A DNA stretch of 64,000 nt from contig NZ_CP101458.1 in NCBI RefSeq assembly GCF_024362525.1, forward strand, positions 620,001 through 684,000. Direction: 5' to 3'. The stretch comes from Natrononativus amylolyticus. Its GTDB lineage: Archaea > Halobacteriota > Halobacteria > Halobacteriales > Natrialbaceae. Below are positions 15,710 to 18,218 of this stretch, piece after piece; positions within the stretch are counted from its first letter, which is position 1, and each line of letters opens with the position of its first letter. The position numbers were made by a program, and so were the translations under genes. The notes beneath the pieces were generated by a model. That model did no database searches. It saw only the letters and a program-made list of their open reading frames with translations, and was not told the DNA's origin.

Positions 15710-16219
15710 ATGATCCGGCGCGTTCGCGAGGACGTTCGGGCGATGCGCGAGCGCGATCCGGCGGCGAGAGGGGTGCTCGAGGTCCTGCTGTGTTATCCGG
15801 GTCTGCACGCCGTGTGGGCACACCGGCTGATCCACCGCCTCTGGACCCGCGGCCACCGACTTGCCGCGCGATTCCTGGCTCACTTCGTTCGCGGAGCTAC
15901 GGGCGTCGAGATCCATCCGGCCGCCTCGATCGGGCGACGGGTGACGATCGATCACGGAATGGGCGTCGTCATCGGCGAGACGGCGGTCGTCGGCGACGAC
16001 GTCCACATGTACCACGGGGTGACCCTCGGCGGAATGAGCGAGCGCCCCGTCAAGCGCCATCCCACGGTCGAGGACGGCGTCCGCATCGGCGCGAACGCGA
16101 CGCTGCTCGGCGACGTTACGGTCGGCGAAGGTGCGACCGTCGGCGCGGGCGCAGTAGTGCGATCCTCAGTCGATCCGGGAACCACGGTCGTCGGCGTTCC
16201 GGCGCGGCCGCTCGAGTAA
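15710..16219 (+). CDS. cysE: Serine O-acetyltransferase (hexapeptide repeat)
   Basis: A 169-residue acyltransferase making O-acetylserine for cysteine synthesis. Residues 60-165 form a left-handed beta-helix of hexapeptide repeats (GVEIHPAASIGRRVTIDHG, then GVVIGETAVVGDDV). The SAT histidines are in IDHGMGVVIGE and MYHGVTLGG. The N-terminal helical part is shorter than in bacterial CysE, as in other short archaeal/Gram-positive types. The ATG overlaps the stop of a 26-codon open frame starting at 15633, probably not a gene. It sits inside the interrupted cofD cluster. Confidence 0.85.
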   Translation: MIRRVREDVRAMRERDPAARGVLEVLLCYPGLHAVWAHRLIHRLWTRGHRLAARFLAHFVRGATGVEIHPAASIGRRVTIDHGMGVVIGETAVVGDDVHMYHGVTLGGMSERPVKRHPTVEDGVRIGANATLLGDVTVGEGATVGAGAVVRSSVDPGTTVVGVPARPLE

Positions 16220-16410
16220 CTCCTCGCCCGTCGTAGGTGTAACGCTCCGTCTCGAGTGCGTTCGGACACAGGGATGATAATTTGTGAGTTCTGGCTGCCG
16301 AGCGATCGCTAACGGTACTCTCAGCAGAAAGTCGTATCTGCGGTTACATAGAAGATCTCGAGAACGCACTTCGGGGCCGATTAGAGTCGATCTCGAGCGA
16401 TAGTTACGAT

Positions 16411-16431
16411 AGTAACGGTCGAATCGTTACT
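16411..16431. promoter_or_regulatory. Inverted repeat AGTAAC-N9-GTTACT upstream of the EamA gene
   Basis: Six-base arms are perfectly complementary around 9 bases, and a further GTTAC half-site lies at 16403-16407. The site ends about 26 bp before the ATG at 16457, so a bound protein would cover the promoter. A closely similar inverted repeat precedes the regulator gene at 17398-17421; both share AGTAACGG, which makes the adjacent CARF-like regulator the obvious candidate. Confidence 0.55.
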
Positions 16432-16456
16432 TTTGTCGTCCCGCAAACGCTCCACG

Positions 16457-17383
16457 ATGATCGAGTGGTTACGAGTAGTGGGGCGGTCTCCAGGTGAATC
16501 AGGCGTTGTGTCCGAGTATACGTGGGCAGTCACACAGGCGGTGGTTGTCGCGCTGCTCTGGTCGTCGTCGTACGTCCTGATCACGATCGGGCTCGACGAG
16601 ATTCCTGCGCTAACGTTCGCAGGCCTGCGCTACACCTTCGCAGCCGCTGTGTTACTCCCGCTCTTCCTGCACCGCGGTCACCATCGGACGGTTCGAACCC
16701 TTGGCTGGCGCGACCTCGGATCACTCCTACTCCTCGGCCTCCTCCTCTATGCCGTCACGCAGGGCGCACAGTTTGCTGCTCTCCAGTACCTCCGTGCCGC
16801 CACGGTCAGCCTCGTTCTGAGCTTTACGCCCGCTGTCGTCGCATTCCTTGCGGCTCCGATGCTCGACGAGCCACCATCGGTTCGACAGTGGCTATGGATC
16901 GGGGTGCTACTCCTCGGCGCCAGCGTCTACTTTTATCCGTTCGATCTTCGAACCGCCGCCCTCCTCGGGCTTGCCGTTATGATCGTCGGCCTCCTTGCGA
17001 ACTCGCTCTCGTCCGTTCTGGGACGACGATTCAACCGCGACGAAACGCTTTCTCCACTCGCAATTACGACCGTCAGTATGGGCTTCGGTTCGGGGGTACT
17101 ACTCACGAGCGGCGTCGCGCTCCAGGGTCTGCCACCACTCTCTCCGCAGAGTTGGGCGATCATCGTCTGGCTAGCGGTGGTGAACACGGCGTTTGCGTTC
17201 ACTCTCTGGAACCGAACGCTCCAGACGCTGTCCGCTACCGAGTCGAGCGTCATCAACAACACGATGCTGGTACAAGTGGCGGTACTCGGCTGGTTGTTTC
17301 TCGGGGAAACGCTGGACGGGCTCGGTTTCGTCGGACTGGCACTGGTCGCTGTCGGTGCGGTAGGCTTCCAGATCTTCGATTGA
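16457..17383 (+). CDS. EamA/RhaT family drug/metabolite transporter
   Basis: A 308-residue membrane protein with ten predicted helices in two EamA repeats (about residues 15-145 and 155-308). Typical end-of-repeat patterns are present, such as LVLSFTPAVVAFLAAPMLDE and AVGAVGFQIFD. Such transporters export amino acids or other metabolites. The ATG at 16457 was preferred over a TTG 8 codons upstream because the repeat/promoter region overlaps the latter. Base composition is visibly less GC-rich than the neighbours, as in the following regulator gene, suggesting acquisition. It follows cysE, so cysteine/O-acetylserine export is imaginable but unproven. Confidence 0.85.
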   Translation: MIEWLRVVGRSPGESGVVSEYTWAVTQAVVVALLWSSSYVLITIGLDEIPALTFAGLRYTFAAAVLLPLFLHRGHHRTVRTLGWRDLGSLLLLGLLLYAVTQGAQFAALQYLRAATVSLVLSFTPAVVAFLAAPMLDEPPSVRQWLWIGVLLLGASVYFYPFDLRTAALLGLAVMIVGLLANSLSSVLGRRFNRDETLSPLAITTVSMGFGSGVLLTSGVALQGLPPLSPQSWAIIVWLAVVNTAFAFTLWNRTLQTLSATESSVINNTMLVQVAVLGWLFLGETLDGLGFVGLALVAVGAVGFQIFD

Positions 17384-17397
17384 ACCCGATAGCGACG

Positions 17398-17421
17398 ACA
17401 GTAACGGATATTTCTTACTGT
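17398..17421. promoter_or_regulatory. Inverted repeat ACAGTAA-N10-TTACTGT overlapping the regulator's promoter
   Basis: Perfect seven-base arms flank a spacer CGGATATTTC that itself contains a TATA-like GATATTTC about 30 bp before the ATG at 17442. Binding would block TBP, the classic layout for autorepression. It resembles the site at 16411-16431. Confidence 0.6.
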
Positions 17422-17441
17422 GTGTGGCCGAACAGACCACT

Positions 17442-18218
17442 ATGACAGGCGACGTTCCCGTTCGAAACCGAGTACAGATCGTTCCGCTCGGCTTCGAATA
17501 CGCCCGATTGAGGGAACCGATCTTATACTGGAAGGCGGACGTGGTCGTTGCCATCGAATACGCGGAGAGTGAGCAGGAGATTCCCTTTCTCTCGGCGCTG
17601 TTGGACGAACTCGAGCAGAACGAACGGATCGAACTCGAGCGGCGCGAATGCGATCTGTTCGAACTGTACGACGCGCTCGGCACGATCACCAAAGCGATCA
17701 CCGACTACGAAACGGACGATGTCTATGTGAACCTCTCGGCCGGCAGCAAGATCACCGCGATCGCTGGAATGATCGCCTGCATGGCCTCCGGGGCGTCGCC
17801 GATCTACGCGCGGCCAGACTACGGGCCCGATGGCGAGCAGATTCCGGACGAGCCGCTGCACGACGGGGTCGCGGAGGTGTTCGCACTCCCGACGTATCCG
17901 ATCGATCGTCCCTCGAACACGCACGTCGCGTTTTTGGCCCGCATCGAAGCGGGAACGACTCCCGAGACACACGGCCGGTATCACGGGGTCCCAAAAAAGG
18001 AGTTGATCGAGTTCGCTCTCGAGGAGGAGTTCGACTTCGTTGTCCGGTCAGAGACAACGTCGCAGAAGGGATACTACAGGCTATTGGATCGGCACGTCAT
18101 CGAACCGCTCGTCGAACGTGGGTACGTCGAGATTGAACAGGTGGGCCGACGAAAATTCGTCTCACTGACGCCGGACGGGGAAAACGTACTCCGCGCATTT
18201 CGTCATTTCATCGAGTAG
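17442..18218 (+). CDS. HFX_2341 (DUF6293) family regulator: CARF-like domain plus winged helix
   Basis: A 258-residue protein. Residues 9-160 look like a CARF-type Rossmann domain: strand NRVQIVPLGF, then YVNLSAGSKITAIAGM (97-110), matching the glycine-rich nucleotide-binding loop of CARF proteins such as Csa3. Residues about 180-258 form a winged helix with a basic wing (EQVGRRKFVSLTPDGENVL). CARF domains sense cyclic oligoadenylates in type III CRISPR systems, but no cas genes are visible, so the ligand is unknown. An inverted repeat overlaps its promoter and a similar one precedes the EamA gene, suggesting control of both. The ATG at 17442 is preferred over a GTG at 17424. Confidence 0.75.
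   Translation: MTGDVPVRNRVQIVPLGFEYARLREPILYWKADVVVAIEYAESEQEIPFLSALLDELEQNERIELERRECDLFELYDALGTITKAITDYETDDVYVNLSAGSKITAIAGMIACMASGASPIYARPDYGPDGEQIPDEPLHDGVAEVFALPTYPIDRPSNTHVAFLARIEAGTTPETHGRYHGVPKKELIEFALEEEFDFVVRSETTSQKGYYRLLDRHVIEPLVERGYVEIEQVGRRKFVSLTPDGENVLRAFRHFIE

Follow-up and report, generated by a model that had tools for sequence, protein, structure and literature searches.

A putative self-contained cassette of a CARF-winged-helix regulator and an EamA/DMT transporter, with predicted 9-bp-repeat operators, in haloarchaea

The window analysed in the present work (the whole 64-kb stretch, positions 620001–684000 of contig 1) comes from a 3.99-Mb genome (G000), 98.6% complete, and embeds two adjacent genes on the forward strand. 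The first of them (16457..17383, +) was assigned to the EamA/DMT family: PF00892 was recognised (1.2e-41; 142.6 bits, above the Pfam cut-off) in two stretches corresponding to the two EamA repeats, and TIGR00950 was matched with 5.6e-29, under the cut-off of that model. Its start is likely the ATG at 16457 rather than the TTG at 16433, which is also open; probing the PDB with the protein sequence did not retrieve any solved structure. The gene probably codes for an EamA/DMT transporter, and we infer that it exports a putative substrate. A gene for serine O-acetyltransferase (CysE; 15710–16219, +) adjoins it upstream in the window and has no counterpart in the other cassettes described below; thus, a link with cysteine export is unlikely as a general rule. 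The second gene (17442..18218, +), with an ATG start consistent with those of its orthologs, codes for a CARF-wHTH regulator of 258 residues composed of HFX_2341_N (PF19810, 4.7e-33) and DUF6293_C (PF22665, 1.4e-30). Both Pfam domains score above their cut-offs (114.6 bits versus 30 and 106.2 versus 27), which places the protein in the DUF6293 family.

A reading of this DNA based on the sequence alone (the sequence-only reading) had ascribed a CARF-type loop and a winged helix to the regulator, and both were recovered. The ligand loop N97-L-S-A-G-S-K103 (17730..17750, +) fits the motif (D/N)-X-(S/T)-X3-(R/K) as defined for CARF proteins (PMC8844856), and its residues N97, S99, G101, and K103 are invariant in 12/12 orthologs; the winged helix (17886..18200, +) corresponds to PF22665, with predicted helices and a beta-wing in residues 185–256. 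The CARF fold itself, for which a structural comparison including Csa3 had been proposed, was analysed by AlphaFold and Foldseek. As a single sequence, the regulator gave no clear relative in the PDB. A model was then obtained with 49 homologs (mean pLDDT 89.5), and all 50 of the PDB matches listed for it were CARF or CARF-like proteins (best E 1.6e-06), including Can2, Csa3, ring nucleases, Csm6, and Cam1; the whole-chain TM-scores are modest because the domain arrangement differs. The profile of the regulator also picks up Card1, Can2-like, and Sso2081 chains. On the basis of the predicted model, the CARF Rossmann-like fold of the regulator is supported.

The regulator resembles Csa3 (Csa3a/Csa3b of the Sulfolobales) in combining CARF and wHTH domains and in the general CARF loop, and 6w11, 2wte, and 6wxq are among the best PDB matches. 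Its assignment to Csa3 was rejected, since TIGR01884 scores 23.3 versus 60.2 and PF22662 (Csa3_N) 25.4 versus 27. Two further traits of Csa3, the complete cA4 motif 1 and the association with CRISPR-cas, were not found. In Csa3, motif 1 has the form Phi-G-F-N/D-x-hydrophilic-F, and Phe14 is needed for cA4 binding (PMC8844856). The regulator keeps half of it (L16-G17-F18-E19-Y20-A21-R22, with G17 and F18 matching); the last Phe, i.e., the cA4-stacking Phe14 of Csa3, is absent and its position is occupied by R22, an Arg invariant in 49/49 homologs. An intact loop together with this replacement suggests, from sequence comparison, that the pocket has been retained and that its ligand probably differs from that of Csa3.

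The same reading had placed the regulator outside CRISPR immunity. In agreement with this, neither Cas1 nor Cas10 was found by Pfam profile in the genome of the window, and the same search gave no Cas10 in 12/12 genomes harboring the cassette and no Cas1 in 11/12 of them, Cas1 being present in one. This, in turn, makes a Cas10-made cyclic oligoadenylate an unlikely ligand. A regulator sensing a CRISPR-type cyclic oligoadenylate would couple antiviral signalling to export, and the CARF fold, the loop conserved in all of the orthologs, and the retained Gly and Phe of motif 1 agree with such a role; however, the distribution of Cas10 and Cas1 and the invariant Arg at a position required for cA4 both speak against it, and we regard it as very improbable.

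The phylogenetic distribution of the two genes was checked by whole-genome profile searches in 392 Halobacteria genomes. Orthologs of the regulator, 58–68% identical, were retrieved from 12/392 genomes belonging to eight genera and five family labels; in 12/12 cases an orthologous EamA gene lies immediately upstream of them, and a separate search for the latter retrieved the identical 12 genomes. The EamA-linked regulators form one clade (support 100/99), in which the regulator of G242 (family f3) nests among members of f1, suggesting that the cassette has moved by transfer. No conservation of the operon was found among the cassettes past the two genes, nor any other common neighbour outside a genus, and none of the more remote homologs that were examined (≤49% identity) has a matching EamA neighbour. 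EamA/DMT exporters adjacent to a regulator represent the pairing of a transporter gene with a dedicated local regulator. To our knowledge, no CARF-domain regulator has been described in an exporter–regulator pair, and searching the literature for haloarchaeal EamA exporters did not bring up any paper.

The closest described counterpart is HFX_2341/crr of Haloferax mediterranei (PMC11434293; NF051475), a haloarchaeal CARF-like protein with PF19810, encoded outside CRISPR loci and linked to transport genes. The regulator of the window was rejected as its equivalog (NF051475, 14 bits versus a cut-off of 500); the true ortholog of the genome lies elsewhere (G000:C1:2392726-2393136, locus L013) and scores 573 bits. 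Moreover, HFX_2341 is a global regulator passed on by vertical inheritance, for which no site is known and whose binding regions remain to be found (PMC11434293), whereas the regulator studied here is patchy in distribution, bound to a cassette, and associated with a defined predicted local operator.

Two inverted repeats had been described at 16411–16431 and 17398–17421, and the sequence bears out their exact positions. The first one (AGTAACG-GTCGAAT-CGTTACT, 16411..16431, no strand assigned) is preceded by, and shares its left arm with, a tandem 9-bp repeat, AGTTACGAT-AGTAACG (16402..16417, +; 15/16 matches), which represents the core of the EamA operator and spans −55 to −40 from the EamA ATG. 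Its right arm, CGTTACT (16425–16431), represents a third half-site (−31 to −26) lying 14 bp after the second repeat and overlapping the expected TATA region. The regulator is preceded by a weaker copy of the core, AGCGACGAC-AGTAACG (17391..17406, +; −51 to −36 from its ATG); the inverted repeat ACAGTAA-CGGATATTTC-TTACTGT (17398..17421, no strand assigned) encloses the TATA-like GATATTTC, and the third half-site follows the second repeat by 13 bp (−27 to −23). All of these promoter positions rely on inferred start codons and TATA positions.

The rarity of these sites was evaluated by whole-genome scans, carried out with patterns allowing up to three mismatches, and by a matrix scan covering the 64-kb window. 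The whole 3.99-Mb genome contains only 3 occurrences of the pattern AGTAAN{10,11}TTACT, two of which are the inverted repeats of the window. The octamer AGTAACGG alone was dropped as evidence of an operator, not being rare (53 genome copies versus 28 for the reversed octamer). With a matrix from whose training set the EamA operator of the window had been left out, this operator ranked first in the window (25.0 bits) and that of the regulator second (20.3 bits); the next site (10.6 bits) is a shifted register of the former, and the best unrelated site reaches 8.9 bits.

The alignment of the upstream regions revealed the tandem repeat AGTAACGAT-AGTAACG before the EamA gene in 12/12 cassettes, with 13–16 matches out of 16. 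In ten genomes, that of the window included, none of 200 shuffles equalled the observed match; one did in G411 and two in G293. A weaker copy precedes the regulator in about seven cassettes, and the shuffles gave clear counterparts at this promoter in G112, G114, G019, G089, G327, and G242, a clear copy missing in several others. Hence, the claim of matching operators at two promoters stands as regards conservation across genomes; the element that is conserved is a tandem 9-bp repeat beginning 9 bp before the inverted repeat first described, and the third inverted half-site is optional, being missing in 5/12 cassettes. Where it occurs, it keeps a spacing of 14 bp at the EamA gene (seven genomes) and of 13 bp at the regulator (six genomes), so that the one-base difference in arm spacing noticed in the window is true and represents a conserved feature. 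Since GTAAC and GTTAC differ solely at their centre, the pair of repeats can also be read as a 14-bp pseudo-palindrome, GTWACnATnGTWAC, whose symmetry is raised to 12/14 by natural changes in two genomes. Loci L045 and L046 (G112 and G114) have extra AGTAACG-type copies with a 10-bp spacing upstream of the EamA core repeat.

The search for the motif before homologs, which the sequence-only reading had suggested, was extended to the wider DUF6293 family. Clades B and C of this family have the same domains (PF19810 and PF22665) and the same 9-bp-repeat operator, with different neighbours: a TFIIB-like gene beside 3-dehydroquinate synthase in clade B and an AGOG DNA glycosylase in clade C take the place of EamA. 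When the 392 genomes were scanned for exact copies of RGTAACGAYRGTAACG, 25 sites were retrieved from 21 genomes, versus 0 for the reversed control. Nine of them lie in EamA cassettes, seven beside clade B regulators, and four just 5' of clade C-type regulators, for a total of 20/25 near DUF6293-family regulators; of the remaining five, four have no such regulator nearby, and one (G018) is about 2 kb from one. This last copy (L151:3666, −) directly precedes an operon for an Mrp-type Na+/H+ antiporter (subunit E, NF009295). A matrix built from only the 12 EamA operators scored at least 19.5 bits at 33/88 other loci of the family, 11 of which had been chosen for the motif and are not independent, whereas 22 had been taken regardless of it (the clade B and C loci fetched for the motif among the 88 are L151–L158, L160–L162, and L164); moreover, the clade B genomes are related to each other, and the locus counts overstate independence. 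All 33 matched loci have the site either 46–85 bp upstream of the regulator or 560–1180 bp past its end, in the latter case mainly in the promoter of a gene that converges on it. In clade B, the distance from the end of the motif to ATGGG, with a TATA-like GATAATA in between, is mostly 47, 56, or 65 bp, and these steps of exactly 9 bp support the 9-bp unit. We did not find any paper giving a DNA binding site for the DUF6293 family; the operator of Csa3, CAPPa (TCCCN8GGGA; PMC8699464), is unlike the repeat described here. The comparison of these loci points to a family-wide operator code for DUF6293 regulators.

In principle, the repeats might be the target of another, global regulator, with the CARF protein merely adjoining them. 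Binding of the operator by the CARF protein is deduced, and the octamer is about twice as frequent as its reversed control in the genome of the window, which would fit this idea. On the other hand, most of the exact sites in the 392 genomes adjoin a DUF6293-family regulator even where the neighbours of the clades differ, and in six f1 genomes the near-matches away from the cassette are close in number to the reversed control; we therefore consider a global regulator improbable. The earlier proposal of a self-contained sensor–operator–transporter circuit holds insofar as the transporter is always the same one, and must be corrected in that the motif is common to a wider family of regulators.

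Taken together, we favour, with moderate confidence, a self-contained regulator–exporter cassette under autorepression. The CARF-wHTH protein would, as a dimer, recognise the tandem 9-bp repeat (AGTAACGAT)n, binding once before the EamA gene and once before its own. The repeats abut the BRE/TATA and the third half-site falls on the expected TATA region; hence, binding would most likely shut out TBP/TFB and keep both the EamA gene and the regulator low. A small ligand accommodated in the N-terminal CARF pocket, whose presence is the reason for proposing ligand control, might alter the winged helices and free the DNA, so that the exporter and the regulator would increase jointly. Repression by occlusion is preferred because the operators occupy the BRE/TATA zone of near-leaderless genes, and also because the paralog HFX_2341 is mostly a repressor, in whose deletion transport genes rise (PMC11434293).

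A serious rival, to which we assign a clearly lower probability, maintains the same cassette and operator and considers the regulator a ligand-dependent activator, bound just 5' of the BRE and recruiting TFB/TBP to the EamA gene. Csa3a, a relative in fold, acts as an activator from a site immediately 5' of the BRE, and the position of the core repeat before EamA resembles that of Csa3a on csa1 (−81 to −42; PMC4333418). Not every cassette has the third half-site on the TATA, and the clade B arrays end upstream of the GATAATA element, as those of an activator would, which counts against repression. At the promoter of the regulator, however, the second repeat lies on the expected BRE and the third half-site is adjacent to the TATA-like run or overlaps with it, an arrangement that fits occlusion better, and the mostly repressive role of HFX_2341 also speaks against activation.

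Haloarchaea commonly encode CARF-wHTH regulators outside CRISPR, homologs of HFX_2341 being found in 643/861 haloarchaeal genomes; what these homologs bind and sense was left open (PMC11434293). Judging from the comparisons reported here, the two-gene cassette, its predicted operator, and the wider operator code appear to be new parts. With a specific predicted operator, a test system reduced to two genes, and target predictions across the family, binding, the sign of control, and the ligand become directly testable, and the data argue that CARF pockets have been retained for a signal other than a Cas10-made cyclic oligoadenylate. As a speculative extension, which we put forward as doubtful, haloarchaea might possess a CRISPR-independent layer of CARF signalling, in which many DUF6293 regulators would share one 9-bp-repeat code and respond to a messenger of nucleotide type from a source other than Cas10, with differing local targets (an exporter, a TFIIB-like factor, and a DNA glycosylase).

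As for the neighbours of the other two clades, clade B regulators are convergent to a gene for a protein of about 195 residues, with a 9-bp repeat array at its promoter (L153:3174-3758, − and L157:3179-3757, −), an arrangement found at about 35 loci beyond these two. The protein fits no Pfam family, and its predicted fold is nearest to TFIIB/cyclin, the match being weak (E 0.34); its gene adjoins those for 3-dehydroquinate synthase II and a HAD hydrolase. Clade C regulators adjoin a gene for an AGOG-type DNA glycosylase/lyase (L160:2438-4321, L162, and L087/L114). At locus L160, these genes are transcribed divergently and the operator lies between them, an organization that recalls the control of DNA repair genes by Csa3a.
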